A DNA stretch of 64,000 bases from Chromatiales bacterium (GCA_002688175.1 NZCC01000003.1:4047-68046), one strand, 5' to 3'; numbered from the stretch's first letter, positions 18,627-37,021 are shown. Made by a program: numbers and translations. Notes: generated from the sequence alone by a model not told the origin.

Positions 18627-18695
18627 GATGACAAGCTACCCGCAATGGGTGCTGATTGACAAGACAGTATCCTGGCAGAGTATTGAAAAATCCTG

Positions 18696-19721: not shown

Positions 19722-20298
19722 AATACGCAGCCAGATCCTTTATATCTTCTTCAGAAAGGTTCATAACTTGTCCGGCCATGACCGGGTCCTTACGGCTTCC
19801 AAGCTTGTATTGGGTCAAAGCCTGCTGGAGATAATCCTCATGCTGGCCGGCCAGCGTCGGCCAGTTCGGCATTGCGCTGACGCCGTTTGCACCGTGACAG
19901 GCGGTACAGATTGCCGCCTTTTCCTTACCCCGCCCAATCTGACCACCGGTTTTCGGATTACCGGAAGACAGTTCTTGCTGGGCAGAAAAATAGGCGGCCA
20001 GATCCATAATATTTTGCTCCGACAAGTCGGCAGTTTGCGCCTGCATCGTCTGATGCGGCCGACTCTGACTCTTGTAACCGGACAGGCTGATCACAAGATA
20101 ATCTTCATGCTGACCACCGAGTTTCGGCACACGATATGTCGGGTAGGCATTTCGATAACCGGCGATACCGTGACAACCGAGGCACACTGTGGCCAGAACG
20201 GAGCCACGCTCGACGTCACCGGCTGCCTGAGCCGGCATCGAAACCAAACCGGCGATGAAGAGACAAAAAATGATCGGCAGAGTTCGCAAAATAGGCAT
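19687..20298 (-). CDS. Diheme cytochrome c4
   Basis: Periplasmic electron carrier with two class I cytochrome c domains. A signal peptide runs to about residue 25 (MPAQA before AGD). Haem sites are CLGCH (39-43) and CTACH (130-134), with Met ligands likely in HQTMQAQ and DPVMAGQVM. The two halves repeat each other (KLGGQHEDYL and TLAGQHEDYL). The 203 aa match cytochrome c4. It sits 41 bp downstream of the fused Opp ATPase and overlaps the YhdH gene, an unusual location for this gene. Confidence 0.93.
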   Translation of the reverse strand: MPILRTLPIIFCLFIAGLVSMPAQAAGDVERGSVLATVCLGCHGIAGYRNAYPTYRVPKLGGQHEDYLVISLSGYKSQSRPHQTMQAQTADLSEQNIMDLAAYFSAQQELSSGNPKTGGQIGRGKEKAAICTACHGANGVSAMPNWPTLAGQHEDYLQQALTQYKLGSRKDPVMAGQVMNLSEEDIKDLAAYYAAQPGLVSLH

Positions 20299-20339
20299 AG
20301 AGTTCTCGAAACTTCATGGGCACTGGCCCAAACGGCCAG

Positions 20340-22160
20340 CTATATTATACGTAATTGTGGCTGGTGGCACGCCACCCATGTTCCGTCATGCAATTCCATG
20401 ACTGGCGGGCATTTCTCGCACTCCGCCACAGCATCCAGGCAACGTGACCGAAACCCGCAGCCAGCAAGGTTTTCCAGTGGACTGGATACTTCGCCTCGTA
20501 CGGTGACGTGCTGACGGCCGCATTCAACTTCAGGGTCGGGAACCGGCGCGGCAGCAATCAATGCACGTGTATACGGGTGCCGAGGCCGCAAAAATAATCT
20601 ATCTGTCGCCGCGATTTCAACTGCCTTGCCGAGATACATAACGATAACCCGGTGACTAATTCGCCGCACCACTGCCAGGTCATGTGCAATAAACACGATT
20701 GCAAGGTCCAGTTTTTGCTGCAGGTCTATCAACAGCTGGATAATCTGCGCCTGAACCGTGACATCCAGGGCACTGACAACCTCATCACAAATCAGCAGCC
20801 GCGGTTGTGAAATCAGCGCCCTGGCAATGCCAATACGCTGGCACTGTCCCCCGGAAAACTCATGCGGATAGCGGTTCACACACGAGGGATCCAGGCCAAC
20901 CCTGGTTAACATATCTGCTACCCGGCGGCTACGATCTTCCGTGTCCAGCTGCGGAAAAAAAGTATCCAGCGGTTCCGCGATGATACGACCGATCGTCATG
21001 CGGGGATTCAGCGAGGCCAGCGGGTCCTGGAAAATCATCTGCATATCCCGGCGGGTACTCCGTAATTCCTCCTTATCCAGCGTAGACAAGTCACGATTCA
21101 ACAGGCAGGTTGTACCGCCACAGGAATCGACGAGCCTTAGAATGGCCCGAGCCAGGGTCGATTTTCCACAGCCGGATTCGCCGACAATGCCAACCGTTTC
21201 ACCCGGCCTGACTTCAATATGAATGTCATCAACCGCGCGCAATACTTTTGGCGCCACAAATAATCGATCGCCCGGCACGCTGAACTCAACGCTTACCCCT
21301 TTGGCGGACAACACCGGCTCTACATCATCGGTCAGGGCCTCCCGGATGGGATCGGCATGTTCACCATCGAGCCGTGGTACCGCATCGAGCAAGGTGCGCG
21401 TGTAATCGTTTGTCGAACGGTAAAAGACGTCTGCGGTGCTGCCTGATTCCTCTTTAATGCCTTCATGCATGACCAGCACTCGATCACAGCTACCTGCCAC
21501 AACGCCGAGGTCGTGAGTAATCAGGATGATAGAAGTCGAAAACTCGCTGCGCAGTTCGTGCATAAGATCAAGAATCTGTGCCTGCACCGTCACATCAAGT
21601 GCCGTAGTCGGTTCATCGGCAATTAATAAAGCCGGCTTGCATAACAGGGCTGTCGCGATCATGACCCGTTGACGCATACCACCAGACAATTCATGCGGGT
21701 ACATGCCAAGACGGCGGCGTGCAGCGGTGATTTGAACGGCATCGAGCAACGCTTCACATTGATGCCAGGCTGCACGGCGATCCATACCCTGATGCAGGCG
21801 TAACACTGTCGACATCTGTTTACCGATCGTAAGGTAGGGATTCAACGAGGTCATCGGGTCCTGAAAAATCATTGCAATTTGTGCGCCGCGAATAGTCCGC
21901 AGATGCGATTCAGGCAAGGCCAGCAAATCCTTGCCGCCAAACAGCGCCCGACCGGCAGCTGCACCATTCGCGGCCAGCAAACCCAGCAACGCCAACACCG
22001 TTTGACTCTTGCCGGAACCGGATTCGCCGACGATGCCGAGCGTCTCACCAGTCTCGACTTTAAAATTCAGATCCTGCACCGCATATACCGGACCGTCAGG
22101 AGTTGCAAACGTCACATTGAGCCCGTCAACAGACAAGATCGTTTCGGGCAAAGCCCTCAT
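20340..22160 (-). CDS. Oligopeptide-type ABC transporter, fused double ATPase (OppDF/YejF-like)
   Basis: Energises the peptide importer encoded by the three genes before it. Two complete ATPase modules are fused in 606 aa: Walker A GESGSGKS with signature LSGGMRQR in the first half, and GESGCGKS with signature FSGGQCQR in the second. The C-terminus has the Cys-rich oligopeptide/dipeptide extension (GCGFRSRC, CEKCPP). OppD and OppF are usually separate; the fusion is as in YejF. The start overlaps the permease stop by four bases. Confidence 0.93.
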   Translation of the reverse strand: MRALPETILSVDGLNVTFATPDGPVYAVQDLNFKVETGETLGIVGESGSGKSQTVLALLGLLAANGAAAGRALFGGKDLLALPESHLRTIRGAQIAMIFQDPMTSLNPYLTIGKQMSTVLRLHQGMDRRAAWHQCEALLDAVQITAARRRLGMYPHELSGGMRQRVMIATALLCKPALLIADEPTTALDVTVQAQILDLMHELRSEFSTSIILITHDLGVVAGSCDRVLVMHEGIKEESGSTADVFYRSTNDYTRTLLDAVPRLDGEHADPIREALTDDVEPVLSAKGVSVEFSVPGDRLFVAPKVLRAVDDIHIEVRPGETVGIVGESGCGKSTLARAILRLVDSCGGTTCLLNRDLSTLDKEELRSTRRDMQMIFQDPLASLNPRMTIGRIIAEPLDTFFPQLDTEDRSRRVADMLTRVGLDPSCVNRYPHEFSGGQCQRIGIARALISQPRLLICDEVVSALDVTVQAQIIQLLIDLQQKLDLAIVFIAHDLAVVRRISHRVIVMYLGKAVEIAATDRLFLRPRHPYTRALIAAAPVPDPEVECGRQHVTVRGEVSSPLENLAGCGFRSRCLDAVAECEKCPPVMELHDGTWVACHQPQLRII

Positions 22161-23041
22161 AACGATGCCCCACGATCACGCGGATCGAGCGCATCGCGCA
22201 AACCATCGCCGAGAAAATTGAAACAAAATAGTGTGATGGTCAGAAATATTGCCGGAAATATGAGCATCCACGGTGCATTCTCCATTTCCTGTGCACCTTC
22301 GTTAACCAATGCTCCCCATGACGTCATCGGTTCTTGTACGCCAAGACCCAGAAAACTTAAAAATGATTCAACCAGGATGACCTGGGGAATGGTTAAGGTA
22401 ACGTAGACCGCCACGACGCCCAGCAGATTCGGCACAATGTGGCGACGAATGATATGCGCTGTAGTTACGCCACCGGCACGTGCTGCCTCGATAAACTCCT
22501 GGTTTTTCAAACTTAGCGTCTGACCACGCACGATCCTCGCCATATCCAGCCAATTGATGGCGCCAATGGCGACAAAGATCAACAGGATATTCCGGCCAAA
22601 AAACACCATCAGCAGGATGACGAGAAACATGAATGGCAATGCATAAAGAATATCGACGATTCGCATCATGACCTGATCGACACGGCCGCCCAGGTATCCG
22701 GATACAGCGCCATAGGTAATACCGATTACCAGGCTCACGAGTGTCGCAACAATACCCACCAACAGCGAGATGCGACCGCCCTGTAGTGTTCGCACCAGCA
22801 AATCCCGACCGAGCGCATCAGTGCCGAACCAGTGTCCGCCACTGATCGTTGGAGCGATTGATATGTTGTCCCAGTCTGTTGCATCGATACTGTACGAACT
22901 GAACCATGGCCCGACGATGACTGCGATCGAAAATGCCGCAAGAATAATCAGCGCAGTAATTGCCGCACGATTTCTGCGTAGTACCGCCCATGCGTCGTAC
23001 CAGAGACTGCGACCCATCGGCTGCTGCATTGGATCGCTCAC
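22157..23041 (-). CDS. Oligopeptide-type ABC transporter permease (OppC-like)
   Basis: Inner-membrane permease, 294 aa. One N-terminal helix (about 24-46) is followed by a BPD transmembrane domain of five helices with the EAA loop EAARAGGVTTAHIIRRHIVP, which docks to the ATPase. SGGHWFGTDALGRD is the OppC/DppC signature. A GTG start at 23041 overlaps the preceding permease stop (GTGA), and the stop overlaps the ATPase start, so translation is tightly coupled. Confidence 0.94.
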   Translation of the reverse strand: MSDPMQQPMGRSLWYDAWAVLRRNRAAITALIILAAFSIAVIVGPWFSSYSIDATDWDNISIAPTISGGHWFGTDALGRDLLVRTLQGGRISLLVGIVATLVSLVIGITYGAVSGYLGGRVDQVMMRIVDILYALPFMFLVILLMVFFGRNILLIFVAIGAINWLDMARIVRGQTLSLKNQEFIEAARAGGVTTAHIIRRHIVPNLLGVVAVYVTLTIPQVILVESFLSFLGLGVQEPMTSWGALVNEGAQEMENAPWMLIFPAIFLTITLFCFNFLGDGLRDALDPRDRGASL

Positions 23042-23958
23042 AATCGTACGCGTGGGTCGAGCCAGCCGTAGACCAGGTCAACAAAAAAATTAAACACGAT
23101 AATCAGCGAGCCGTAGAACACAACAACACCCATGACGAGCGTGTAATCTCGATTCAGAGCCCCCTGCACAAAAAACCGGCCAAGACCTGGAATACCGAAT
23201 ATCTGCTCGATGACCACGGAACCGGTAATGACGGCGGCTGTCGCAGGGCCGAGATACGAAATAACCGGCAGCAAAGCGGGCTTGAGTGCATGCTGCACAA
23301 TAATCCGGGGCATCGACAACCCCTGGGCACGTGCCGTACGAATGAACGGGCTACGCAACACTTCTATCATGCTACCGCGCATCAGGCGCGCGATATATGC
23401 GATTTGTGGCATTGCCAGGGCGATCACCGGCAATAACAGATGTCTGGCCTCACCATCGCCAAGACCACCGGCCGGCAGCCAGCGTAATCCTACGGCAAAC
23501 AACAGAATCAGTAGTGGTGCAACGACAAAATTCGGGATAGAGATACCCACCATCATTACGGTCATGACGCTGTAGTCAGCTGCAGAGTTTTGCCGCAGGG
23601 CTGCATATGCACCGGCACTGATACCGACAATAAGGGCCAGCAGCATCGCCAGACCACCCAGTCGCAACGACACCGGAAATCCGCTGCGAATTAATTCCGT
23701 AACACTGAAGTCGCGATACTGAAACGATGGACCGAAATCACCCCGGGCGAGATTGGCCAGGTACCGACCAAACTGCTGGTACAGCGGCTCATCAAGATGG
23801 TATGCCGTACGCAGGTTGGCCTCGATTTCCACCGGGAGCTGTTTCTCACTGTCGAACGGACCTCCCGGTGCCGCACGTATCAACATAAATGCCAGGGCAA
23901 TCAGAATGAATAATGTTGGAATCGCGCTCAGCAAACGACGCAGCATAAAATTCAGCAT
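23038..23958 (-). CDS. Oligopeptide-type ABC transporter permease (OppB-like)
   Basis: Inner-membrane permease, 306 aa. The N-terminus MLNFMLRRLLSAIPTLFILI is the usual OppB/DppB first helix, followed by AAPGGPFD. The EAA loop is present as RTARAQGLSMPRIIVQHALK. It lies 91 bp downstream of the binding-protein gene and overlaps the next permease. Confidence 0.94.
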   Translation of the reverse strand: MLNFMLRRLLSAIPTLFILIALAFMLIRAAPGGPFDSEKQLPVEIEANLRTAYHLDEPLYQQFGRYLANLARGDFGPSFQYRDFSVTELIRSGFPVSLRLGGLAMLLALIVGISAGAYAALRQNSAADYSVMTVMMVGISIPNFVVAPLLILLFAVGLRWLPAGGLGDGEARHLLLPVIALAMPQIAYIARLMRGSMIEVLRSPFIRTARAQGLSMPRIIVQHALKPALLPVISYLGPATAAVITGSVVIEQIFGIPGLGRFFVQGALNRDYTLVMGVVVFYGSLIIVFNFFVDLVYGWLDPRVRL

Positions 23959-24049
23959 GGAAAACAGACTCCGATCTCTAATGCATTTTGGTATAGCCCC
24001 GAAACGGCTAATGCGGGAGTAACTTTAGCAACGATTTCCTGATCTATTA

Positions 24050-25714
24050 TCAATGCTTGAGAATATAAAAATTCTTCGTGTAGTGATGATCCATGATATT
24101 TGGTTTCCGCCCGCCAACCCAGCTCTTGACCAGGTGTTTCGATACATAAAAGTAAACCGGAATAATCGGCATATCTTCAAGCAGGACACGCTCAGCCTGG
24201 TTAAGAATATCCGCACGTGTCGATAAATTTGTCTCGCCCGCCGCGCGCTCAATCAATTCATCATAGCGTGGACTTGAATAACCTGGATGGTTCATTGCGT
24301 TGGCTGAGTGCATTAGTTGTGAAAAAGTGAATGCATCATTGTAATCACCAATCCAGCCACCCCGGAAAACCTGGGTGGTTTTCTTGAGCTGACGGGTTTC
24401 CAAAAAAACTTTCCACTCCTGGTTTAATAATTCTGTTTCTACACCCAGTGTTTGTTTCCACATCGAGGCAATGGCAACACTAAGCCGTTTATGATTTGCA
24501 CTGGTGTTATATAACAACTCAATCTTCAGTGGTTTATCGGCTGAGTACCCAGCCTCAGCATAAAGACGTTGCGCTTCAACATCGCGTTCAGCCTGGCTCC
24601 AGCCGGCCCATTCAGGAACAACCGGACTGTAGTTGGCCACCTGCGGTACCCAGCCAAAAGCCGGCAGCTCTCCGGCATTGGTAATTCGGCTGGTGATAAT
24701 TTCGCGATCAATCGCCAGCGACAACGCACGACGCAGCTGCGGGTTATTTTGAAACGGTTCACGCGTCATATTGAAGCCAAAATAGTAACTGCCAAGATAC
24801 GGTGAAATAACCAGCTGATCGCCAAGATTTTCACGAATCCATGTTAACTGTTGATACGGAATCTCCTCGGTAATATCGAGTTCATCCGCGCGAAACCTTT
24901 TCAGTTCTGCATCCTGACTTTCGATTGGATAGTAATACACGCTATCAATCGTCGTATTGACATCGTCCCGATAAAATTTATTTCGAATAAGTTTAATGTG
25001 CGATTGGACGACCCATTCATTCAGTGTATAAGCGCCGTTGCCGATCAGGCGTCCCTCGCGCGCGAACTGATTACCATATTGCTCGACCGATGCACGATGT
25101 ACCGGATACATCGTTGAGTGAGTCAGCAGGCCGGGGAAATAAGCTGTCGGCCGTTGCAGCCTGATAACCAGCGTTAAGGCATCCAGGGCTTCGACGCCCA
25201 GTTCCGCGGGTGATTTTTTACCCGTGATGACCGCCATAGCATTTACGATTGGCTCCAGGATGCTCGAGTAATGTGACATCGTGGCCGGATCAACGCTTCG
25301 TCGCAGACTGAACACAAAATCCTCTGCCGTAACCGGATCACTGTTACTCCATTGCGCATCCTCACGCAGATAGAACGTGTAAACGAGTCCGTCTGCGCTG
25401 ATATCCCAGCTTTCGGCAGCGCCGGGCACAACAGAACCATCCGGCGCTTCGAGCGTCAATCCTTCGAACAGATCGCGCAGGATATTAGAAGAAGGAACAC
25501 CTTCAGCGCGATGCGGATCAAGTGTTTGCGGCCCTGTTCCATTTCCCACATGCAGTGTCTGATCCACAGCCAATTCGGTACCCGATGGGCCACCAATCTC
25601 AACCGCAGCTGTCGGTGAACCCGCTCCATTGCCACCGCAACCAACAAACAATACGGCGACAACCGCAAAGCATGAGAGGCGTACGGACGATGCAAATATA
25701 TTCAGATGCCGCAT
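24050..25714 (-). CDS. Peptide-binding lipoprotein of ABC transporter (OppA-like, SBP family 5)
   Basis: Captures peptides outside the inner membrane for the permeases downstream. The signal peptide ends in the lipobox LFVGC (Cys26), so it is probably a lipoprotein rather than the soluble periplasmic OppA of enterics. GTGPQTLDPHRAEGVPSSNI and NGAYTLNEW are typical of family 5 solute-binding proteins. It is 554 aa. It begins 7 bp after mnmG ends, so the transporter may be read through from mnmG. Confidence 0.93.
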   Translation of the reverse strand: MRHLNIFASSVRLSCFAVVAVLFVGCGGNGAGSPTAAVEIGGPSGTELAVDQTLHVGNGTGPQTLDPHRAEGVPSSNILRDLFEGLTLEAPDGSVVPGAAESWDISADGLVYTFYLREDAQWSNSDPVTAEDFVFSLRRSVDPATMSHYSSILEPIVNAMAVITGKKSPAELGVEALDALTLVIRLQRPTAYFPGLLTHSTMYPVHRASVEQYGNQFAREGRLIGNGAYTLNEWVVQSHIKLIRNKFYRDDVNTTIDSVYYYPIESQDAELKRFRADELDITEEIPYQQLTWIRENLGDQLVISPYLGSYYFGFNMTREPFQNNPQLRRALSLAIDREIITSRITNAGELPAFGWVPQVANYSPVVPEWAGWSQAERDVEAQRLYAEAGYSADKPLKIELLYNTSANHKRLSVAIASMWKQTLGVETELLNQEWKVFLETRQLKKTTQVFRGGWIGDYNDAFTFSQLMHSANAMNHPGYSSPRYDELIERAAGETNLSTRADILNQAERVLLEDMPIIPVYFYVSKHLVKSWVGGRKPNIMDHHYTKNFYILKH

Positions 25715-25721
25715 GGTTTAC

Positions 25722-27653
25722 TCAAGCCCTCTTGAGCTGGCGTTTTTTTACATGCACCAGCAGCAATGCAATCGCAGCCGGTGTCATGCCGGAAATCCGT
25801 GAAGCCTGACCGAGTGTTGCAGGACGCGTCATCTCCAGTTTCTGACGAATCTCATTCGACAACCCACGCACGCTACCGTAATCGAGATCCTCTGGGAGGA
25901 CCGTCTGTTCATTATTCCGCGCCCGATCAATTTCTTGCTGCTGTCGGGATACGTATCCACTGTAGCGCGCATCAATTTCTACCTGATTGTCGATCTGCTC
26001 AGACATCTCAGGTGTTTCTTCCGGTTCGACTTCACGCGCACCGACTGCTGCAATGCTGGTTAACGCGCGGTAATCGAGTTCGGGCCGGCGCAGCAACTCG
26101 ATGGCTTTCTGTTCACGCCTGAGTGGTCCGCCCAGTTGAGCCTGATGTGCATCATTGAGATTGCCGGGACGGACAAGTATTTCGGCAAGGCGTGCCGTTT
26201 CCCGTTCGATGCGCTCTCGCTTGGTCACGAAAAATTGCCAGCGCTCGGCATCGATGAGTCCCAGTTCACGACCGATCTCGGTCAGACGCAGATCAGCATT
26301 ATCTTCACGTAATAACAGGCGATACTCGGCGCGACTCGTAAACATCCGGTAAGGTTCCTGCGTACCACGAGTGATCAGATCATCAACCAGCACACCGAGA
26401 TAGGCCTCATGACGCTGTGGATACCATGCATATTTTTCCTGCGCCCTGCGTGCGGCATTGATACCGGCCAGCAAACCCTGAGCACCAGCCTCCTCATAAC
26501 CCGTCGTGCCGTTAATTTGTCCGGCAAAGAACAAACCGCTAATTGCCTTGGTCTCGAGCGTCGCCCGTAAATCACGCGGGTCAAAATAATCATATTCGAT
26601 TGCATAGCCCGGGCGGGTGATTTTTGCGCCGGCAAAACCCGGAATCGTCGCAATGAACGCAAGCTGTGTATCGTACGGCAGACTCGTGGAAATACCATTG
26701 GGATACAGCTCAATAGAACTCAATCCCTCGGGCTCAACAAAAATCTGATGCGAATCCTTGTCGGCAAACCGGGTAATCTTGTCTTCAATTGACGGGCAAT
26801 AGCGCGGTCCGACCCCGTCAATCGCGCCGGTATAAAGTGGCGACCGATCGAGAGCACCACGAATAATGTCATGTGTCGCTGACGTCGTTTTCGTCAGGTG
26901 ACACGGAACCTGTCGCGGATGCTCGGTCCTCTGGCCAAGAAACGAAAAGACCGGCACCGGATCGTCGCCATGCTGTTCCGTCATCAAGCTAAAGTCGACG
27001 GTCCTCCCATCGATCCGGGGCGGTGTGCCGGTTTTCAGGCGCCCGACGCGAAACGGCATTTCTCGTAATCGATCTGCCAACCGAATTGAAGCCGGATCGC
27101 CGGCACGCCCGCCACTATGGCTCGACTGACCAACATGAATCAGGCCGCCCAAAAAAGTCCCCACCGTCAACACCACTGTCGGCGCATAAAACTTCGCGCC
27201 TAAACCTGTCACGATGCCGGTAATACGATCACCGTCAAGCAGCAAATCATCGACACTCTGTTGAAAGAGTGACAAATTAGGCTGATCATCCAGCATCTGA
27301 CGTATCGCCTGCCGGTACAAAATTCGATCGGCCTGGGCACGCGTCGCCCGAACGGCCGGTCCCTTGCTTGCATTGAGAATACGAAAATGAATACCGGCCC
27401 GGTCAATTGCCCGAGCCATCAAACCACCCAGCGCATCAATCTCTCTAGTCAGGTGGCCCTTGCCGATACCACCAATGGCCGGGTTACAGCTCATCTGGCC
27501 AAGCGTATCGAGATTCTGCGACAGCAATAAGGTACGAGCACCGGAACGCGCTGCAGCCGCAGCGGCTTCAGTCCCGGCATGTCCGCCGCCTACAACGATG
27601 ACATCAAAATTCCTGTTCACGATATCCAAAGCACTGGTTTTAAGGGCGGCCAT
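25722..27653 (-). CDS. mnmG: tRNA uridine-34 carboxymethylaminomethyl synthase, FAD subunit
   Basis: Works with MnmE to modify the wobble uridine of several tRNAs. The FAD motif [11 protein letters not shown] opens the protein and [17 protein letters not shown] is the family signature; the C-terminal helical domain ends with [16 protein letters not shown]. The ATG at 27653 gives 643 aa. A GTG at 27620 gives 632 aa, closer to E. coli (629), with GGA just before it; an upstream GTG at 27704 is less likely. mnmE lies about 6 kb away, separated by accessory genes. Confidence 0.96.
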
Positions 27654-28037
27654 TCTACTGTGGAAATGGTAGTGGGTCACTGTTGTTCCATTTATTTCAG
27701 CCACTTACGTGGAGACGGATGCATTTTCGGAATGCGCTCCGGCTAACCCTTTGCAGGAAACATAAACAGCCCCATGGCCTCCAATGATAGCGGGACTTGT
27801 TACTTATTGGCTGCAAGGCGGAAGTTGCTTCACCTCTCCCGGCCACTATTTAACATAATCCGTTTAGCCCTCAATGCCAATTCAATCACGGTAATAACAG
27901 CGCCAATTTGCCAGCATTCGGTATCTTGTTTATCTGGTTCACCTGTAGTGAGCGCAACGCCATATTCTTCCAGGGTTATTGACGCCCACCCCGACAGCGA
28001 TCTGTCGCCGAGCGATGCAACCACCAAATTGGAGCCG
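27654..28037. other. Intergenic, mnmG to GGDEF-like gene
   Basis: This 384-bp divergent gap should hold the promoters of mnmG and of the GGDEF-like gene. An open frame continues upstream from 28038 to 27774, but its translation lacks any protein-like pattern. No tRNA or hairpin was seen. Confidence 0.4.
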
Positions 28038-29147
28038 ATGGAGCAATTTCATCTGGTCCTCTCGATCTACATCGGCTGGTCTGTCATTGCCTGGCTCAGT
28101 CACATGGCCGGTATGGTCACCATCAGTTCACGGACTGCCGTTATAAACCTTATCGGTATTTGCGCTACCAACGTGCTGTTCTTCACCATCGCCCGCAGCC
28201 CTTCACCACATAGACCCAGCGACGAAATAACGGCTCTTGCACAAAGCGTGGTCGGTATCGCCTGGGCCACACTATTTACATTTATGAGTTCAGGCAGCGG
28301 TGAACTGAGCATCACCATTTATGCATCAATAGTATTGTTTGCAATGCTGCGTGTGAGGCGGCATGTCCTGAACCAGATCACCATCTTTGCTGTAAGCAGC
28401 TACATGATCGTGTTCATCATCAAGATGCTATCCAGAGAACCGCCGTCAATAACGCCAGACAACCTGGTGCAAATGCTGATTTTTGCCGGCATCATGTTGT
28501 GCCTTGCGGGTACCGGTCGCTATGTTTATCGACGACATAACCGTATCAAGCGCGAGTGCGCCCAATTACAGGAAAAACTACGCCGCGATCACACAAATGA
28601 TAGAGTTAATTCAGTCAATCGCCGCTACATCCTGGATTTGTTGGCACGAGAGAAAGGCAGGGCAGATCGCTCCAACATTCCATTTTGCGTCTGTATCTTC
28701 CATGCCGATCATGTTGATATGCTCTCGGCAAATGTGGAACAAGACGTCAAGCGGCTCACGCTGAAAAATGTCGAGGCCATCATCCGTTCAGAGCTACGAG
28801 ATATGGATTCACTGAATGCAACCGGTTTTCACGATTGTTTCGGGACATACAGTGACAAGGAATTTATCGCAATCCTGCCACAAACAAATCTGGCCGGCGC
28901 CCAAAACTCGGCAAAACGCGTGCTTAATATCACAGCCCAACACGAAATAGTCGATGATCACATCAGGTTATGCGGTGGTATCGCCGAATACCGTCGCGGC
29001 GAATTAATTACTGTCTTGCTTGAGCGTGCAGAAGAATCTCTGAACAGAGCGCGTGCGTTGGGCGCCAATTGTGTCTGTTGCAGTGATAGTGAAACGCAAA
29101 AAACTGATAGCGCAGAAATCGTCAACCTGGATACACGTCGCAGATAA
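28038..29147 (+). CDS. Membrane protein with degenerate GGDEF domain
   Basis: The N-terminal half has about six hydrophobic segments (residues 5-165), then a charged linker, then a C-terminal domain that aligns by pattern with diguanylate cyclases: NRRYILDLLAREKGRADR, RDMDSLN, FIAILP, AEESLNRARALGANCV. The catalytic GGDEF is replaced by SDKEF (about 272-276) and the metal-binding Asp region reads FHADHVD, so cyclase activity is unlikely. It may sense or scaffold instead. The ATG at 28038 (GGAG just upstream) gives 369 aa. An in-frame start at 27774 would add 88 residues of unconvincing sequence. Confidence 0.7.
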   Translation: MEQFHLVLSIYIGWSVIAWLSHMAGMVTISSRTAVINLIGICATNVLFFTIARSPSPHRPSDEITALAQSVVGIAWATLFTFMSSGSGELSITIYASIVLFAMLRVRRHVLNQITIFAVSSYMIVFIIKMLSREPPSITPDNLVQMLIFAGIMLCLAGTGRYVYRRHNRIKRECAQLQEKLRRDHTNDRVNSVNRRYILDLLAREKGRADRSNIPFCVCIFHADHVDMLSANVEQDVKRLTLKNVEAIIRSELRDMDSLNATGFHDCFGTYSDKEFIAILPQTNLAGAQNSAKRVLNITAQHEIVDDHIRLCGGIAEYRRGELITVLLERAEESLNRARALGANCVCCSDSETQKTDSAEIVNLDTRRR

Positions 29148-29158
29148 CTATTGTAATA

Positions 29159-29192
29159 AAGCCGGGTGGGTCTGACCAGACCCACCCGGCTT
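29159..29192. terminator. Bidirectional Rho-independent terminator
   Basis: A perfect 15-bp inverted repeat (AAGCCGGGTGGGTCT and its complement) with a 4-nt GACC loop, flanked by T-rich sequence on both strands. It lies between the convergent GGDEF-like gene and the CbiX-like operon and fits termination of both. Confidence 0.88.
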
Positions 29193-29240
29193 ATTATTTA
29201 ATATGGCCCCGGCCAATCGCCGGCCATAGCGGCTGGAGCT

Positions 29241-30188
29241 TCAGCTACCGATCAGCCTGGCGAGTCGCCCGGTCGTCAGACTCTCTTCGATAGACTGTAC
29301 GACCCAGTTGTTCAGGTTCTCATCCGGGAGAATTGCCTCGGGCTCGTTATACAACACGTCATCCGGACGAATAGACTGCCGCCCGGCTTCACCGATGATG
29401 TCCCGCTGAAACATGTAATCGTAAGCAACATAGACCGAGATAAGAACGTTCTTCTTTTTCTCTTCCAAAATCTGGTTGATGGCCTTTTTTGTCGGCTCGA
29501 TGGAATAGTTAACGAGATGTCCGCTCCAGGCCGAGTTAACGATATCGATATCCAGATTTTCTTTGAGGTGCTCTCCAAGTTCAGTCATGAGTTCTTCCCA
29601 TTGCTGATTGAACCCCTGATCACCATAAGCTGCGAGTGTCACGCCGACATCACTGCCTTCAACACCTTCAAGCAATGACTTGGTGCGACGCAGAATGTTA
29701 GTTTTCAGGAACTCTGTCGCATCAATGGTTTCCAGAAGCGTAACGCGGGCGCGTGGACGATAGACAGGCACACCTTCCTTCGGCAAAGACTCGAGCACAT
29801 CCTTGTCGTTCTTCAGCCCAAGCCCGTTGGGTAGATCTGAATTTGTATGGCCGCCAACGGTCAGAAACAGCGGCAGCGCGATGACTTCATCATAACCTTC
29901 GTCATCGAATGCCTTCATCTGCGTGGCAATTGACGGTTCGGTATATTCGTTGAACGCCGTCTTAACACCCTGCACATTGGGCAAAGCGAGTAATTTGTCA
30001 TCGACAGCCTTTTCAACATCTACCAGCATGTCACGCCAGGCTTTCTGTTCCGATCCGTGATTGACGAGCAAAATGCCGATCTTTGGTCCTGTATCTGCGC
30101 TTGCCGCCGGTTCAGATGACTGACCGCAACCGGTTAGCAACAGCGTAATCGACGCGCTAGCAATTAATACCGTCCATAACTTACTCAT
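29241..30188 (-). CDS. CbiX/SirB-like chelatase-family lipoprotein (third gene of cassette)
   Basis: A 315-aa lipoprotein: a signal peptide with lipobox LLTGC (Cys21), then a chelatase-like fold. The N-terminal half keeps both metal-site His positions of CbiX/SirB proteins: H44 in ILLVNHGS and H114 in LPLFLTVGGHTNSDLP. The second half repeats the fold more loosely (VTLAAYGDQGFNQQ). Known relatives insert cobalt or iron into sirohydrochlorin in the cytoplasm; here the protein would act outside the inner membrane, so its role is unknown. The ATG at 30188 has a strong AGGAGAGA site; an upstream in-frame ATG at 30221 overlaps the preceding gene. Confidence 0.82.
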   Translation of the reverse strand: MSKLWTVLIASASITLLLTGCGQSSEPAASADTGPKIGILLVNHGSEQKAWRDMLVDVEKAVDDKLLALPNVQGVKTAFNEYTEPSIATQMKAFDDEGYDEVIALPLFLTVGGHTNSDLPNGLGLKNDKDVLESLPKEGVPVYRPRARVTLLETIDATEFLKTNILRRTKSLLEGVEGSDVGVTLAAYGDQGFNQQWEELMTELGEHLKENLDIDIVNSAWSGHLVNYSIEPTKKAINQILEEKKKNVLISVYVAYDYMFQRDIIGEAGRQSIRPDDVLYNEPEAILPDENLNNWVVQSIEESLTTGRLARLIGS

Positions 30189-30217
30189 TTCTCTCTCCTG
30201 TTGAATGACCGGGCGAC

Positions 30218-31663
30218 TCATGCACCAGCCGGTTGCCCGACAACGTCCTGATTGGGTCGTCCGGTTTCACGATTTCCCTGTCTCACTGATTTTGATTTTG
30301 CCATAAATGTAATGCCGTCGAGAACAGCCCCGGTCGGGCACAGCATACGGCACCACAGCATTGGATAGTATGCGGATACCAGAACCGCCGCCAGAGACAG
30401 CCAGAACCATTGCGATTCAAGAATTTCAAGGCCGAACAAATCCGGGAACAATTCAAAGCTGCCCCAGTCCGGGAGCCCGCTGACGATACCCGCAATCAAC
30501 GTTATGGTAATTGCCCAGCGAATCAGGTCCAGTACTCGATTAGATACTTTCAGCCTGCCATGCCACGGAATTATTCGTACCAATAATCTTTGTACGTTCC
30601 CGTAGGGGCAAATATAACGGCAATACGTATTTGAATCCCAAATAGAGCTGAGCAAAACAATGGCCGCATAAATACCGAGAATATAAGACCAGCCGATGCC
30701 CAGGAACGGCTGTGTGAAAGTCGCGTAGGTGAACGAGTTATTTTGGAAAAAACCCAGATAGGCGATAGTCACAATGCCATAGGCCAAACTCCATTGCGGT
30801 GAACGTCGGTTAAGCCGCGAAAAGGCAATAATGAACAGTACGATTATCAGTGCGGCATCGATGACCCAGGTGCTCGGCAATACCGGTACGGTCTCGAACC
30901 CGGCCGGGTTCGTATCAATATAAATCTCCAGCGGTGATTCGCGCGCTATGCTGACGAGATCGCTGACGCTACGAGCAACACCCTCGGTCGTCAGTGATGC
31001 GCCGCTGACGATATCAACTTCATAGGTCTTGTCGTCGAGTGGAATGCTCTGGAAGCGCTCGTAGAATCCATCGTCCTCGATATCATTAAGATAACTTGTC
31101 GTCTCCATTGAGAATACGTGGGTAACAGACCGGATCTTGCCGTCTACACCGACTACCATGCCGATATCGATGGGTCCGGCATAGCCCTTTATATTTTTGT
31201 TCAGGCCGGTGTTCTCGAAATAAAGTTGCTCTACCCGGCCTTCGACATTACGCTCCTCGGCATAGTACATATCCAGCGCGGTCTTGAGCTTCACGCCATC
31301 CGGGTTTGACGCATGGAGCTTCGCATTTTCAAATACTCGCTCAGCAACCTCCGGTGCAAGCCCCGGGTTAGTCCGGGAATCTCCGATGATTCCAAAATCA
31401 TGCCGCTGCTCATTCTTTGCAGTCATGATGTGGTAATACGGATTTCTTTCCGTATCACCGACTACGCCAAATTTTGGCGGAATATACTCCTCGCCGGCGC
31501 GGACCGGTTCGGTGTACCCGGTCACAAATTCTTCGAATTTGAATACCGGTGGGCGTTCCTGCAGCGGGCCGTTAATCAAGAAGAAAACAAACCCCGCAAC
31601 GGCAATCGCCGTCAGACCGATCTTGGACAACGGCAATACCGGGCTGTTAACAGTTGTGTTCAT
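30218..31663 (-). CDS. FMN-binding, NosR/NapH-like transmembrane electron-transfer protein
   Basis: A 481-aa membrane protein. One helix (about 13-31) leads to an extracytoplasmic FMN-binding domain with SGASLTTEGV (220-229); Thr225 matches the position where ApbE attaches FMN in NqrC/RnfG proteins. About five helices follow (264-433), with CRYICPYG (C348, C352) and CRMLCPTG (C438, C442), the CX3CP motifs of NosR and NapH. The ferredoxin-type 4Fe-4S motifs of NosR are absent. It probably moves electrons between the membrane and a periplasmic partner. It lies between two chelatase-like lipoprotein genes with gaps of about 30 bp. No apbE is in this window. Confidence 0.82.
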   Translation of the reverse strand: MNTTVNSPVLPLSKIGLTAIAVAGFVFFLINGPLQERPPVFKFEEFVTGYTEPVRAGEEYIPPKFGVVGDTERNPYYHIMTAKNEQRHDFGIIGDSRTNPGLAPEVAERVFENAKLHASNPDGVKLKTALDMYYAEERNVEGRVEQLYFENTGLNKNIKGYAGPIDIGMVVGVDGKIRSVTHVFSMETTSYLNDIEDDGFYERFQSIPLDDKTYEVDIVSGASLTTEGVARSVSDLVSIARESPLEIYIDTNPAGFETVPVLPSTWVIDAALIIVLFIIAFSRLNRRSPQWSLAYGIVTIAYLGFFQNNSFTYATFTQPFLGIGWSYILGIYAAIVLLSSIWDSNTYCRYICPYGNVQRLLVRIIPWHGRLKVSNRVLDLIRWAITITLIAGIVSGLPDWGSFELFPDLFGLEILESQWFWLSLAAVLVSAYYPMLWCRMLCPTGAVLDGITFMAKSKSVRQGNRETGRPNQDVVGQPAGA

Positions 31664-31695
31664 AATTGTTCCGGCATCGTGTCAACCCAGTGGCA

Positions 31696-32670
31696 TCACT
31701 CGAGTTCACTGGGGGTAAGGACCTCACCGACAATATCTGCCCCGGCCTGGTGAATACGTTCCACGCCTTCCTGAACAATCCTGACTACATAATCGTTAAC
31801 CTTGGGATCAGGGAGAACGGCATCTGGCTTATAACGTAGCCTCGAAGATGTCGGTATGGCATTGACGGCAGCTGCAATCGTATTGACCTGCAACATTTCA
31901 TCGATGCCGAGCAGAACCGGGATGACGAGCACCTCTTCTTCGAGATCAAGTATCTCCTGGATCGCTTTGACTACCGGCTCTCCCGAGTAATCAACCAGAT
32001 CACCGGCGAATGCATAGCCGACGGTATCGATTTCGCTCTTGATCTTCAGGTAGCGACCGAGACCCTCCATGATTTCCTGCATTTGCTGGCCATAGGCCTG
32101 ATCGCCATAGCCCACCAGCAGGACGCCCATATCGTCACCACTGTCTTCGCCCTGCAAGGCCAAAACCCGGCGCAGCACATTTTTCTTCAGTGCACCGCCT
32201 TCATTCAGGGATGGCGTCACACTGATACGTGCGAGCGGATAATAGACCTCGAAGCCTTCTTTTTCGAGTTGCTTCATTTGTCCGGCGGCCGAACGTACAC
32301 CGACCAGATATTGCATGTAGTCATTCGAGCGCACCGATTCAGCCGCGATCAGCAACGGCACGACGATCACTTCATCATAACCGGCCTCATCAAGGAGACG
32401 CATTTGTGAAGCAATATTCGGCGTAGACTCATCGATGTAGGCAAGCCGAACCTCAGTGATATTCGTACTGCTGAGGATCGGTTCACGAACCTCGGCGGCC
32501 AGCGTTTCGAGCTGCTTGGTCCATTGAGCTGATTGTGATCCGTGCGCTACGAGCAAGACAGCAATACTGGTTTTACTGGGATCGACAGGCGCGGGTCCAC
32601 TGTCACAGGCCGTCAACAAGGTTACAGTGCAGATCCCGGCCAACACCAGGCTATAGATGTTTCTGATCAA
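31696..32670 (-). CDS. CbiX/SirB-like chelatase-family lipoprotein (first gene of cassette)
   Basis: A 324-aa lipoprotein with lipobox LLTAC (Cys22). The N-terminal chelatase-like half has VLLVAHGSQ (H43), the family's first metal ligand, but the second His site is lost: VVPLLIAAESVRSNDY replaces the PLFL-x-GxHxxxD pattern seen in its partner. The second half repeats the fold (VLLVGYGDQAYG). It starts with TTG at 32670, supported by AGGAG six bases upstream. It is first in the operon, 32 bp before the FMN-binding membrane protein. Substrate unknown. Confidence 0.8.
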   Translation of the reverse strand: MIRNIYSLVLAGICTVTLLTACDSGPAPVDPSKTSIAVLLVAHGSQSAQWTKQLETLAAEVREPILSSTNITEVRLAYIDESTPNIASQMRLLDEAGYDEVIVVPLLIAAESVRSNDYMQYLVGVRSAAGQMKQLEKEGFEVYYPLARISVTPSLNEGGALKKNVLRRVLALQGEDSGDDMGVLLVGYGDQAYGQQMQEIMEGLGRYLKIKSEIDTVGYAFAGDLVDYSGEPVVKAIQEILDLEEEVLVIPVLLGIDEMLQVNTIAAAVNAIPTSSRLRYKPDAVLPDPKVNDYVVRIVQEGVERIHQAGADIVGEVLTPSELE

Positions 32671-33053
32671 TTTATTCTCCTACTGGTCGGAAATTCAGCT
32701 AACCAATGCCGCAGAACGACATTTTGTCACCCATACCGATTTCTCGCCGTAATTACCGAATGAATTCCTTGGTTTACACGATTTTCGTTGCGACCTTTTC
32801 CTCCGCTAGAGCGGCCCGGTCGTCTGTAATCTATCGCTGCAGCCGGAACTTTAGCAGAAAAAGGGGCCAAATCCTTGCTGGACCGTAACAGTGTGTAACA
32901 AATTGTTACGTATTGGCTTGAGTCAGGATGCGCTTTTCGTCACCTGGTCAGCACAATGGAACAGGGGATGCCTGCACGCCGTCGATTCCTATATGCTAGA
33001 TTATTGTAATAATAAATGTTCAGTCCGTTTGTCTCTCAGGTGGAGTCAATTAA
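32671..33053. other. Divergent intergenic region upstream of the CbiX-like operon
   Basis: This 383-bp gap lies between the CbiX-like operon and a small membrane protein and must hold both promoters. A palindrome sits at 32895-32909. No convincing protein was found here. Confidence 0.4.
32895..32909. promoter_or_regulatory. Palindrome, possible operator
   Basis: GTAACAA-A-TTGTTAC is a perfect 7-bp inverted repeat around one base. Another GTAACA lies just upstream at 32885. It is about 145 bp before the small membrane protein and 225 bp before the CbiX-like operon. The binding protein is not known. Confidence 0.4.
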
Positions 33054-33464
33054 ATGACAACAATTGCAATTCGTATCGTAATACTCAGCGCTGTAATGGC
33101 TGTGTACATCGGCGTGGCATTTCGTGGTGTCGAGTACGACCCGTTGGAAACAGGGCCGGCTTTGTTAGGGTATTTTCTTGCCTTCACCATTTGGACACTG
33201 ATAGCAGCGCCGCTATATAAGATAAAAACTCAGGCGGATGAAGCATCACTGGCCACATTCACTTTTCGCTGCTGGGCGATCACTGCAACGCTGGCAACCT
33301 GCGTAATAATCTTTTACTCCATGACAGATATTGCCTCGGCCGGTGAATTTCGCGACAACATCATCGTCGGCACGATCCTCATGGCCGTGATAGTCGTGGC
33401 GCTAAATTATGCGCTGATCATTGCACTGCGAAGTCTGCTGTCGAAGCGGCGTCGAGCCCGGTAA
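33054..33464 (+). CDS. Small four-helix membrane protein, unknown function
   Basis: Not recognised. The 136-aa protein has four predicted helices (about 5-23, 36-53, 71-90, 104-126) and ends with an Arg/Lys-rich tail SKRRRAR, which would face the cytoplasm. It has no Cys, His cluster or known motif apart from these helices. A good ribosome site (AGGTGGAG) precedes the ATG. It is divergent from the CbiX-like operon and convergent with mnmE, so it may be a partner of the operon or an unrelated resident. Confidence 0.65.
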   Translation: MTTIAIRIVILSAVMAVYIGVAFRGVEYDPLETGPALLGYFLAFTIWTLIAAPLYKIKTQADEASLATFTFRCWAITATLATCVIIFYSMTDIASAGEFRDNIIVGTILMAVIVVALNYALIIALRSLLSKRRRAR

Positions 33465-33483
33465 GAGCAGCTGTCTGCTACTG

Positions 33484-34848
33484 CTACTTTCCGATACAAA
33501 ACGCTGAGAAGATCTCACCGAGCAAATCGTCGCTGCTGAATTCACCGGTGATCTCGGCCAGGTGATTTTGTACCTGTAACAACTCTTCCGCCATCAGCTC
33601 GCCGGCTGCATATTCGAGCAACTGGGTCTTGCCGGCCAGAAAATGATCACGCGCCTGGCGCAGGCTATCGAGATGGCGCTGGCGTGCCGTAATCATTTCA
33701 CCACCTTCTGCTTCATACCCGATCACCGTCTTGATTCGCTCACATAACGCATCAATGCCGTCGCCAGTCAGCGCAGAAATATTGACAGTGTCGGAACCTG
33801 CCGTATCCATACCCGGTGATTCGTCGGTCAGATCAATTTTATTTCGTATATAGGTAAAACCGAGATCACCCGGTAATTCAGTACGCAACATTGCGCCATG
33901 ATCTATCGTGGTATCGGTCGCATCAATGACGATCAGGGCATGATCTGCTGCTGCTATTTGTTGTCGAGTGCGCCTTATGCCTTCCTGTTCAATAACGCCT
34001 TCGCTGTCATGCAATCCGGCCGTATCGATAATATGCACCGGTAACCCATCGATTTCGATATGTTCGCGCACGATATCGCGTGTCGTACCCGGTATGTCCG
34101 TAACGATAGCCGCATCGTAGCCTGCCAGTGCATTCAGCAATGATGACTTGCCGGCATTGGGTCGTCCGGCCAGTACGATATGTACGCCGTCACGCAATAG
34201 TCTCCCGATACGAATCGTTCTTTCCAGTTGAACAAATTCACAATCTACATCTTCAAGCCGGGCCAATAACGCTGCATCGTCCAGAAAGTTAATTTCTTCT
34301 TCGGGAAAATCAATCGCAGCTTCAACATGCACGCGCAGTTCAGTTACTTTGCTATTCAATGCATATACAGCCGCTGAAAATTTTCCCTGTAACGAGCGCT
34401 GCGCTGCTCGTGCGGCTGCTTTCGAACTGCTGTCAATCAGATCGGCAACCGCTTCTGCCTGACTCAGGTCAAGTTTGTCGTTGATGAAGGCACGCCGGGT
34501 GAACTCACCAGGCTCTGCAAGTCGCGCACCAAGCTGTACGATTCGTGCTATCAACATATCGGTGACTACGCTACCGCCGTGACCTTGCAGCTCGAGCACA
34601 TCCTCACCTGTGAACGAATGCGGGGCAGGAAAAAATAGCGCTATACCTGAATCGATCGATTCATCATCAGCATCAAGAAAATTACAAAGCGTCGCAAATC
34701 TTGGTTGTGGCAGTTCGCCAATAATGCCTGCTGTGATGGCTTTGACCGCAGGACCGGAAATTCTAATGACCGCAACACCACCACGGCCGGCAGGTGTCGC
34801 TCGGGCTACGATCGTTCTTTCCACTTTATCGTTGTGTGCAGCCGACAT
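33484..34848 (-). CDS. mnmE: tRNA modification GTPase MnmE
   Basis: GTPase partner of MnmG in wobble-uridine modification. The N-terminal formyl-THF-binding domain ([20 protein letters not shown]-like [16 protein letters not shown]) is followed by a helical domain, the P-loop GRPNAGKS (228-235), the DTAG switch region, and the C-terminal FCIGK (450-454) with the family's Cys. The 454 aa equal E. coli. It lies 79 bp downstream of yidC, the standard order. Confidence 0.97.
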
Positions 34849-34927
34849 TGAAGTACCGTCCAGTCAGCAGGCTATCCAGGCGTCGATCACGGTTGCAGCG
34901 ATTCCGGACAATATATCCGGTTCCGAA

Positions 34928-36610
34928 TTAGTCTGCGCCAAGCAGCTTATTAATACGCCACTGCTGTGCCATCGATAGCACCGAGTTCGTCAACCAATAC
35001 AGGACTAACCCGGCCGGGAAAAAAGCAAACATCCCGGTAAACATGACCGGTAAAAATTGCATAACCTTGGCCTGCATCGGGTCGGGTGGCGGTGGATTCA
35101 GTTTCTGCTGGAAAAACATGGCAGCACCCATTAACAGCGGCAGGATAAAGAATGGATCACGCGTTGACAGATCGGTGATCCACAACATAAATGGTGCCTG
35201 GCGCATCTCGACACTCTCAAGCAGCACCCAATAAAATGCGATAAAGAATGGAATCTGGATAAGCATAGGCCAACAACCGGCGGCAGGATTGACCTTTTCG
35301 CGTTTATATAATTCCATCATTGCACGGCTTAGCTCCTCACGATTATCCTTGTGACGCTCCTGCACTGCCTTGAGACGCGGTGCGATCTTGCGCATCTTTG
35401 CCATCGACCGACCGCTCTTTTCAGTTAGTTTGTAAAACACCAACTTGATTAGCACGGTGACGATAACAATCGTCCAGCCCCAGTTGCCGACGATGTCGAA
35501 GATCTTCTGCAACAGCCAGAACAGTGGCTGGGCCAGTACGGTTAACCGGCCATAGTCGACCGTCAGCTGCAGTCCATCAGCAACTTCGGTTAATTGCGCC
35601 TGCAGTTTTGGGCCGACAAACAAGGTTGATGCAAATATGGCCTGGTCGCCAGCCGCGATTGATGTCGCTGCTGAATCCATCAACCGGGTCAGGGTAACGT
35701 TACCGTCAAATGTGCCGGTATATTTTCGCGTTGCTTCTGCTGACGGCACGGCCGCGACAAGAAAATGGTGCTGAATCGAAGCGATCCAGCCATTGTTAAT
35801 CGTTTGATCAAACGGTTCCTCAACCAAATCCTCGACATCAAGCTTTAAATATTTTTCACCATCGTATATGACCGGTCCGACGAAAGAGTATGAGTCGACA
35901 TCGAACATCGATCTTTCCGGAGGCGCATGCTTACGCTTGATCTGTAAATAACTGACCGCCTGATACGGTTCCGTGCCTCCATTATGGAAAACCTGATCAA
36001 GACCGATTGCATAACTGCCGCGATTAAATCGATATATTTTTTCTGCTGTCAGGCCATTCTCGCCCTGCCAGTGAAGCGTCACAACAAGCTGGTTCTGTCC
36101 GTCGGCAAGAACATATTCGTCCTGATCTGCAGTAAATGTGCTGCGATGATTGGGTTCGGAGATGCCCTCCACAGATCGCAACCCTGATCCAACCACAAAA
36201 ATATTAGCCGGGTCCGCCGACAGCAGCTGCACTGAGTTATTTGGGTCGCCCTTGGTCACCGGATAAGTGGGCAGCTTTGCATATTGCAAATCGCCACCGT
36301 CAAGATTGATCTCAATATTCAGCACATCTGTCTTGACGTGAATTACTTTTACGGCACTTATTTTTCCAGCGTCGGCACTGGCATTGTTGCCGACCGATAA
36401 TGGCATGTCAGCCGATGATTCAGTCGCAGAAAGCTCCGACAAACTGGGCAAATCATCGATTACGGGCCCCGAATCTTCCAATACAGGTGATGACAGGCCG
36501 GTGCTGTCCAAGACGGTGGGTGGCGGCGCGTAGTCCTGTTGCCAGGCCTGAAAAGATAACCAGAGCAGGACCCCAAGGCCCATCCACAGAAAAAGTCGGA
36601 TGTTATCCAT
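34928..36610 (-). CDS. yidC: Membrane protein insertase YidC
   Basis: Inserts proteins into the inner membrane, alone or with SecYEG. The N-terminal helix (IRLFLWMGLGVLLWLSFQAW) is followed by a large periplasmic beta domain, then the conserved five-helix core, including NPAAGCWPMLIQIPFFIAFY. It is 560 aa, slightly longer than E. coli (548). An ATG at 36610 was preferred over a TTG three codons upstream because MDNIR is the usual family start. yidD, often found just before it, is absent. Confidence 0.96.
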   Translation of the reverse strand: MDNIRLFLWMGLGVLLWLSFQAWQQDYAPPPTVLDSTGLSSPVLEDSGPVIDDLPSLSELSATESSADMPLSVGNNASADAGKISAVKVIHVKTDVLNIEINLDGGDLQYAKLPTYPVTKGDPNNSVQLLSADPANIFVVGSGLRSVEGISEPNHRSTFTADQDEYVLADGQNQLVVTLHWQGENGLTAEKIYRFNRGSYAIGLDQVFHNGGTEPYQAVSYLQIKRKHAPPERSMFDVDSYSFVGPVIYDGEKYLKLDVEDLVEEPFDQTINNGWIASIQHHFLVAAVPSAEATRKYTGTFDGNVTLTRLMDSAATSIAAGDQAIFASTLFVGPKLQAQLTEVADGLQLTVDYGRLTVLAQPLFWLLQKIFDIVGNWGWTIVIVTVLIKLVFYKLTEKSGRSMAKMRKIAPRLKAVQERHKDNREELSRAMMELYKREKVNPAAGCWPMLIQIPFFIAFYWVLLESVEMRQAPFMLWITDLSTRDPFFILPLLMGAAMFFQQKLNPPPPDPMQAKVMQFLPVMFTGMFAFFPAGLVLYWLTNSVLSMAQQWRINKLLGAD

Positions 36611-36622
36611 ATATCGCAATCA

Positions 36623-37021
36623 CTACGTTCGGTTAGTGCGGGCCACAGCCCGCCAATGTTGTTCCAAGCTCGCAAACAGGTCGCGATTTACAGCCGGTTC
36701 CGACTGGTCGCGCGCCATGATAACGATGTCGACGCCCAATAGCTGGTTTTTAGCGTGGCGAAAACTATTCCGGATGATTCTTTTCAGGCGATTTCGGGCC
36801 ACAGCGTGCCTGATTCGCTTTTTTGCAATCGCAAGGCCGAGCCGAGGATAGCCCAGATCATTGTGGCAATACAAAATGGTGAAAAATCGGTCGCGAGACC
36901 GTTGTGCGTGCTTGAAAACATGATCAAAATTTGCAGCATGGGTGAGTCGATTGGAACGCGGTAATCCCTGTCCTTCGATAAACAGATCATTGATTATTAA
37001 TTCTGAAGGATGTCGTTCCAC
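36623..37021 (-). CDS. rnpA: Ribonuclease P protein component
   Basis: Protein subunit that helps RNase P process tRNA 5' ends. The RNA-binding signature AIAKKRIRHAVARNRLKRIIRNSF-type region (about 64-87) is present, with RSNRLTHAANFDHVFKHAQR before it. The GTG at 37021 gives 132 aa, about 15 longer at the N-terminus than E. coli (119), and lacks a clear ribosome site; no better ATG, GTG or TTG lies before the conserved part. It is 81 bp downstream of rpmH and 12 bp before yidC. Confidence 0.92.
   Translation of the reverse strand: MERHPSELIINDLFIEGQGLPRSNRLTHAANFDHVFKHAQRSRDRFFTILYCHNDLGYPRLGLAIAKKRIRHAVARNRLKRIIRNSFRHAKNQLLGVDIVIMARDQSEPAVNRDLFASLEQHWRAVARTNRT

Follow-up and report, generated by a model that had tools for sequence, protein, structure and literature searches.

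What task could unite, in one operon, two proteins that resemble cytoplasmic tetrapyrrole chelatases and a membrane flavoprotein? The question is raised by positions 29241-32670 of a 64,000-nucleotide stretch of DNA from a Chromatiales bacterium (GCA_002688175.1 NZCC01000003.1:4047-68046; the whole stretch is called the window). Three genes lie there on the minus strand, in the order LP1, MEM, LP3 (working names; LP1 and LP3, lipoproteins; MEM, membrane flavoprotein). LP1 (31696-32670) encodes a CbiX-like lipoprotein of 324 amino acids and is read from a TTG start at 32670, with AGGAG upstream. MEM (30218-31663) encodes a predicted RdhC/NapH-like flavinylated membrane protein of 481 amino acids. 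LP3 (29241-30188) encodes a CbiX-like lipoprotein of 315 amino acids with a predicted two-domain class II chelatase fold; its start was set to the ATG at 30188 over the mechanical 30221, on the basis of an AGGAGAG ribosome-binding site and of the starts of homologues. The gaps are of 32 base pairs (bp) between LP1 and MEM and 29 bp between MEM and LP3. The cassette, its coordinates and a spacing of about 30 bp had been given by a preliminary description made from the sequence alone; all were recovered here, with matches to CbiX, FMN_bind and Fer4_5 above the Pfam cut-offs.

On balance, and with nearly as much doubt as confidence, the cassette is read here from its sequence as a module that extracts haem iron in the envelope. 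A fuller claim is plausible but falls a little short of probable: self-powered extracytoplasmic haem de-chelation by a reverse class II chelatase lipoprotein with its own flavinylated transmembrane electron carrier, patchy across phyla and, in Persicobacter, sharing one open reading frame (ORF) with an outer-membrane receptor. The preliminary description had proposed extracytoplasmic handling of a tetrapyrrole or metal by membrane electrons. That general idea is supported, and is narrowed to haem-iron acquisition by the haem loci of relatives; the conserved core is not the whole set of three but LP3 and MEM, LP1 being, by sequence comparison, a family-restricted paralogue.

The haem loci are found outside the window's family. 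In G441, a genome from another gammaproteobacterial family, a same-strand run consists of hemP, a DNRLRE-like gene, HmuY, a TonB receptor, a matrixin-like gene, DUF2470, LP3 and MEM. HmuY scores 67.3 bits (cut-off 27) and the receptor 430 bits (haemin-family cut-off 316.85). The run adjoins TonB-ExbB-ExbD-like genes and two bacterioferritin-like genes, and a Fur-box match of 15/19, reached by 2/200 simple shuffles, lies upstream of hemP. In G228, from a third gammaproteobacterial family, one strand carries a hemP-like gene, a TonB receptor, HmuY (55.7 bits), LP3, MEM and a second LP3 copy. The sole HmuY gene of each of these two genomes adjoins the cassette. The ORFs of G228 are shortened (LP3a starts at VNHGS; the N-terminal half of MEM is not in frame), probably through draft-assembly frameshifts or decay; this locus was used for context, and LP3a for conservation only. 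In Persicobacter (Bacteroidota; two strains, large replicons), LP3 is followed by an in-frame fusion of MEM to a TonB-dependent receptor and then by HmuY (35.5 and 39.0 bits; cut-off 27). The fusion ORF encodes 1211 or 1223 amino acids (L045 13001-16636; L046 12929-16600), with an internal signal-peptide-like stretch between MEM and receptor. Because this context recurs in three separate lineages and two phyla, LP3 and MEM are tied to haem uptake, and the cassette probably strips haem iron outside the cytoplasm.

Other features of these loci are as follows. Through its fusion, the single Persicobacter ORF joins a protein of the inner membrane to a receptor of the outer one. The DUF2470 protein of the G441 operon (L029 9759-10064) is a stand-alone protein of 101 amino acids, with a weak match to the haem oxygenase HugZ, encoded directly upstream of LP3; DUF2470 is a domain associated with haem oxygenases of the HugZ type. 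DUF2325 proteins are encoded near the cassette in both gammaproteobacterial haem loci (L029 4400-5584; L030 7089-8432), in L030 directly 3′ of the second LP3 copy. Imelysin-type proteins also occur in both (L029 155-1249, by Pfam; L030 3981-5168, by eye).

LP3 would be the catalyst, as its fold, residues and context suggest. It matches CbiX with 52.4 bits (cut-off 22). Profile alignment pairs His9, Glu42 and His75 of CfbA, whose metal-site roles are taken from PMC11301274, with H44, E81 and H114 of LP3. His44 (30057-30059) is thus the equivalent of CfbA His9 and SirB His10, and His114 (29847-29849) that of CfbA His75 and SirB His76. This His-Glu-His site is kept across all LP3-type proteins found, from Gammaproteobacteria to Bacteroidota. 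So is a histidine of the C-terminal half, His224 (29517-29519; motif GH[LV]V), which is present in every LP3-type protein found, both Persicobacter proteins included. The predicted structure (predicted local distance difference test, pLDDT, 80) compares with SirB at Z 17.9 over 237 residues and with coproporphyrin and protoporphyrin ferrochelatases at Z of 15-16, the coproporphyrin enzyme being at about 16; its similarity to periplasmic CbiKP is lower than that to SirB. According to this model, the two domains of LP3 form the class II chelatase fold of SirB and ferrochelatases. The two halves of LP3 are related, the C-terminal one being a diverged copy of the other (hhalign E 4e-5, probability 70%); Y188 stands in place of the first His, and the conserved H224 near the place of the Glu.

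LP3 and LP1 both score under every curated cut-off of the NCBIfam equivalogs for named sirohydrochlorin chelatase-type enzymes. A cytoplasmic biosynthetic chelatase is not what either protein looks like: the lipobox Cys is invariant in both, and the ten cassette genomes have no CbiC (siroheme genes were not searched). The lipobox of LP3 is LLLTGC (lipid Cys21, 30126-30128) and that of LP1 is TLLTAC (lipid Cys22, 32605-32607), each Cys being kept in all eight homologues of its protein.

LP1 is a paralogue, found only in the window's family. It matches CbiX with 38.6 bits (cut-off 22) and keeps the first metal-site His (H43). The second, counterpart of LP3 H114, is replaced by V/T in all eight LP1 proteins, so that the His-Glu-His site is incomplete; the counterpart of H224 is also lost, with D/K/R in its place. 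In the tree, a fully supported split divides LP1 from every LP3-type protein (the position of the long G228b branch is unsure). From these residues, LP1 is probably non-catalytic and not a chelatase. The lipoboxes that the preliminary description saw on both proteins are genuine conserved features, as are the motifs that it saw in MEM; its two chelatase-like proteins both match CbiX, but both chelatase histidines are present in LP3 only.

MEM matches FMN_bind with 31.3 bits and Fer4_5 with 32.0 bits (cut-off 22 each). Its predicted layout is an N-terminal transmembrane helix, an extracytoplasmic FMN_bind domain and more transmembrane helices with two CX3CP motifs; hydropathy fits six transmembrane helices. 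The flavin mononucleotide (FMN) attachment motif is SGASLT (residues 220-225, 30989-31006; flavinyl-Thr225 predicted). The CX3CP motifs are CRYICP (residues 348-353, 30605-30622) and CRMLCP (residues 438-443, 30335-30352). All persist to 33% identity, as far as Persicobacter, with one exception: the usual place of the flavinyl-Thr is a Ser in the MEM proteins of G441 and G228. FMN_bind with SGA[ST], transmembrane helices and two CX3CP motifs are, at the level of sequence, the RdhC/PceC-type architecture. MEM was rejected as a full-length NosR (22.7 bits; cut-off 1000), since only Fer4_5 and FMN_bind are above the Pfam cut-off. No C-terminal ferredoxin domain was found in MEM with Pfam, and a PDB sequence search with MEM gave zero matches. 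ApbE, which is needed for FMN attachment, is encoded in 10/10 cassette genomes. The linked apbE that the preliminary description had envisaged was not recognised in the neighbourhoods read; in all ten genomes the gene lies elsewhere.

In the window's family, LP1, MEM and LP3 occur together in 8/40 genomes, always in the order LP1-MEM-LP3. Searches with MEM and with LP3 match the identical eight genomes, and LP3 and MEM are missing from the other 32; the co-occurrence that the preliminary description had expected is thus all-or-none. Full-length conservation in eight genomes excludes chance as the source of the cassette. In the window's genus (three genomes) the cassette lies between mnmE and mnmG; in two other genera of the family it lies elsewhere, with unrelated flanks. 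The flanks differ among genera and contain no iron genes, except for a large TonB-dependent receptor in one genus. All-or-none occurrence, fixed order and differing flanks together indicate that the three genes have moved together and act as a single unit. The cassette is rare: a class-level sample of 369 genomes gave two further matches, and a phylum-level sample of 398 genomes none besides the window's own genome. No relative of the cassette was found in the viral contigs searched. The plasmid collection has a full-length LP3 or MEM relative in Persicobacter only. A MEM-like match in Prevotella (L047 5815-6924) is a shorter NapH-like protein with FMN_bind and CX3CP and without a chelatase neighbour, an example of the generic group. 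In genus g8 (L016 10325-15241; L017 2202-7226), TonB-dependent receptors of more than 1600 amino acids with bacterial immunoglobulin (Big_9) domains are convergent with the cassette.

The reading as a haem-iron extraction module can be set out in steps. Haem would enter the periplasm through a TonB-dependent receptor, with help, in relatives, from the haemophore HmuY. MEM would draw electrons from the inner membrane or the cytoplasm (quinol or other donor) and pass them through CX3CP-bound centres to the covalent FMN outside, where haem iron would be reduced. Lipid-anchored LP3 would hold haem in its cleft and run the reverse ferrochelatase reaction; Fe(II) would be released for FeoB, and protoporphyrin or a related ring would be left. 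LP1, without a full metal site, would most likely carry haem or a porphyrin, or else serve LP3 as a partner subunit. We infer haem as the substrate in the window's organism, the direction of the reaction, the electron path and the role of LP1. A strong match to the FeoB N-domain is present in 9/10 cassette genomes, the exception being a 78% complete draft. In the window's own genome (G000:C70 28269-33068), a full-length FeoB gene lies about 2.5 kilobases from the TonB receptor gene that matches the haemin family best, though below the cut-off; G003:C53 has the same pairing.

Several points weigh against this reading. For many class II chelatases the reaction is insertion of metal, not removal. 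In its C-terminal half, LP3 has no equivalent of the second His pair of CfbA, and the role given to LP1 is a guess. The AlphaFold model of MEM failed (pLDDT 34) and was not used, so that the topology of MEM rests on its motifs, on hydropathy and on PceC. HmuY is absent from the eight cassette genomes of the window's family (0/8), and no TonB receptor there is above the haemin-family cut-off, despite tens of TonB-receptor matches per genome. Upstream of the window's cassette, no Fur-box-like site is better than shuffles. Because HmuY and an adjacent haem receptor are lacking there, the haem role in the window's own family rests on homology. A Fur-box match of 12/19 at L013 is a GATGATG repeat.

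Three other explanations were weighed. The one that survives best, though unlikely, is that haem is reduced and trafficked without de-chelation: LP1 and LP3 would be catalytically dead periplasmic haem carriers, and MEM would keep haem or ferric iron reduced for an inner-membrane transporter. The haem-locus context also agrees with it, and LP1, having lost its second metal-site His, shows that the fold persists without full catalytic residues; CbiKP of Desulfovibrio, moreover, is called haem-binding in the title of a 2017 paper. The conservation of His-Glu-His in every LP3 homologue found speaks against it, however, as a pure carrier would not need these residues, and the genes read on either side of the cassettes include no recognisable haem ATP-binding cassette (ABC) transporter (not searched genome-wide).

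Recruitment of the cassette away from haem in the window's family, for example to another metallo-tetrapyrrole or to a product of c-type haem breakdown, in which LP1 would be the change of specificity, is improbable. The restriction of LP1 to this family, the lack of HmuY there and the genus-dependent flanks, free of iron genes apart from a large TonB-dependent receptor gene that in one genus converges on LP3, would agree with it. Yet the window's LP3 is 48% identical over its full length to that of the G441 haem operon, and the two share the histidines of the metal site and of the C-terminal half.

Insertion of Fe, Co or Ni into a tetrapyrrole by extracytoplasmic LP3 (as proposed for CbiKP), with MEM keeping the metal or the ring reduced, is equally improbable: the CbiX family does insert metals and the best named NCBIfam models are nickel- and cobaltochelatases (65.7 bits, below the cut-off of 120), but 10/10 cassette genomes, in which positive controls were detected, lack CbiC (B12 synthesis), on which ground a cobalamin role was rejected, and the linked genes of relatives serve haem uptake, not tetrapyrrole synthesis.

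In the window, a terminator-like hairpin (29159-29192; 15-bp stem) lies 3′ of LP3 and closes the operon. It is also 3′ of a convergent gene (27774-29147) that encodes a membrane protein whose C-terminal part is GGDEF-like but diverged (GTYSDKEF), the terminator being common to both. Positions 17979-37000 hold an origin-proximal block, rnpA-yidC-mnmE-mnmG-rsmG-parA-parB-atp, with two interruptions. The first, between mnmE and mnmG, consists of the cassette and the GGDEF-like gene; the second, between mnmG and rsmG, consists of an oligopeptide ABC transporter set, a cytochrome gene and a quinone-oxidoreductase-like gene.

Release of iron from haem without O2-dependent haem oxygenase is an active question in bacteria. 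If the extraction reading is true, the cassette achieves haem de-chelation in a second way, unrelated to the first; it gives a function to some of the NapH-like flavinylated proteins, a large known group for most of which a 2021 survey calls the reactions unknown (PMC8238504); and it warns against annotating lipoprotein 'CbiX' genes as sirohydrochlorin chelatases. The preliminary description knew of no described system of this composition. This is too broad, as extracytoplasmic haem de-chelation is known (HmuS) and a putative reverse ferrochelatase, IhtB, has been named (PMC12583661, PMC13227078). What does appear undescribed is the coupling of a class II chelatase-like lipoprotein to a flavinylated electron-transfer partner of its own; to the literature searched, the combination of LP3 with MEM, the way it is spread over phyla and the fusion with a receptor appear to be new.

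The sirohydrochlorin chelatases SirB/CbiX and CfbA share the fold and the His-Glu-His site of LP3; they are cytoplasmic and biosynthetic, whereas LP3 and LP1 are lipoproteins. CbiKP, the periplasmic cobaltochelatase of Desulfovibrio (PDB 2xvz), has a class II chelatase fold outside the cytoplasm, as proposed for LP3. To our knowledge, it is not a lipoprotein pair and has no flavinylated partner. IhtB of Porphyromonas gingivalis, which we take to be a CbiK-related outer-membrane haemin-binding lipoprotein encoded with a TonB receptor, follows the same basic idea as LP3; we know of no flavinylated electron-transfer protein that accompanies it. LP3 matches CbiX rather than CbiK. IhtB is termed a putative ferrochelatase/reverse ferrochelatase (PMC13227078). 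PceC/RdhC and NapH-like proteins have the same parts as MEM (exocytoplasmic FMN domain, demonstrated for PceC, PMC5928378; predicted transmembrane helices; two CX3CP motifs). Unlike in these systems, the partner of MEM is a chelatase-like lipoprotein. Genes for a reductive dehalogenase, nitrous oxide reductase, NirS or ExaA were not recognised next to MEM, and the main text of the two surveys of flavinylated proteins mentions neither chelatase nor CbiX.

Another known system close to the proposed one is HmuS of Bacteroides and Porphyromonas, a CobN-like haem de-chelatase dependent on reduced nicotinamide adenine dinucleotide (PMC12583661, PMC13227078). Like the LP3 relatives, it is encoded with HmuY and a TonB receptor; this context is present in G441, G228 and Persicobacter but not in the window's family. 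HmuS acts at the inner membrane or in the periplasm on reduced haem, from which it removes Fe(II), thought to enter via FeoB; its electron donor in vivo is unresolved (PMC12583661), and a membrane electron-transfer chain, for example quinones or flavoproteins, has been suggested in P. gingivalis (PMC13227078). A flavoprotein of that kind is here genetically tied to a chelatase-like lipoprotein and, in one phylum, fused to the haem-side receptor. HmuS, a large protein, belongs to class I (CobN/ChlH), whereas LP3 is, by Pfam and fold, an unrelated class II protein with a dedicated flavinylated membrane partner. By analogy, LP3 with MEM fits the same task as HmuS, performed with different parts.

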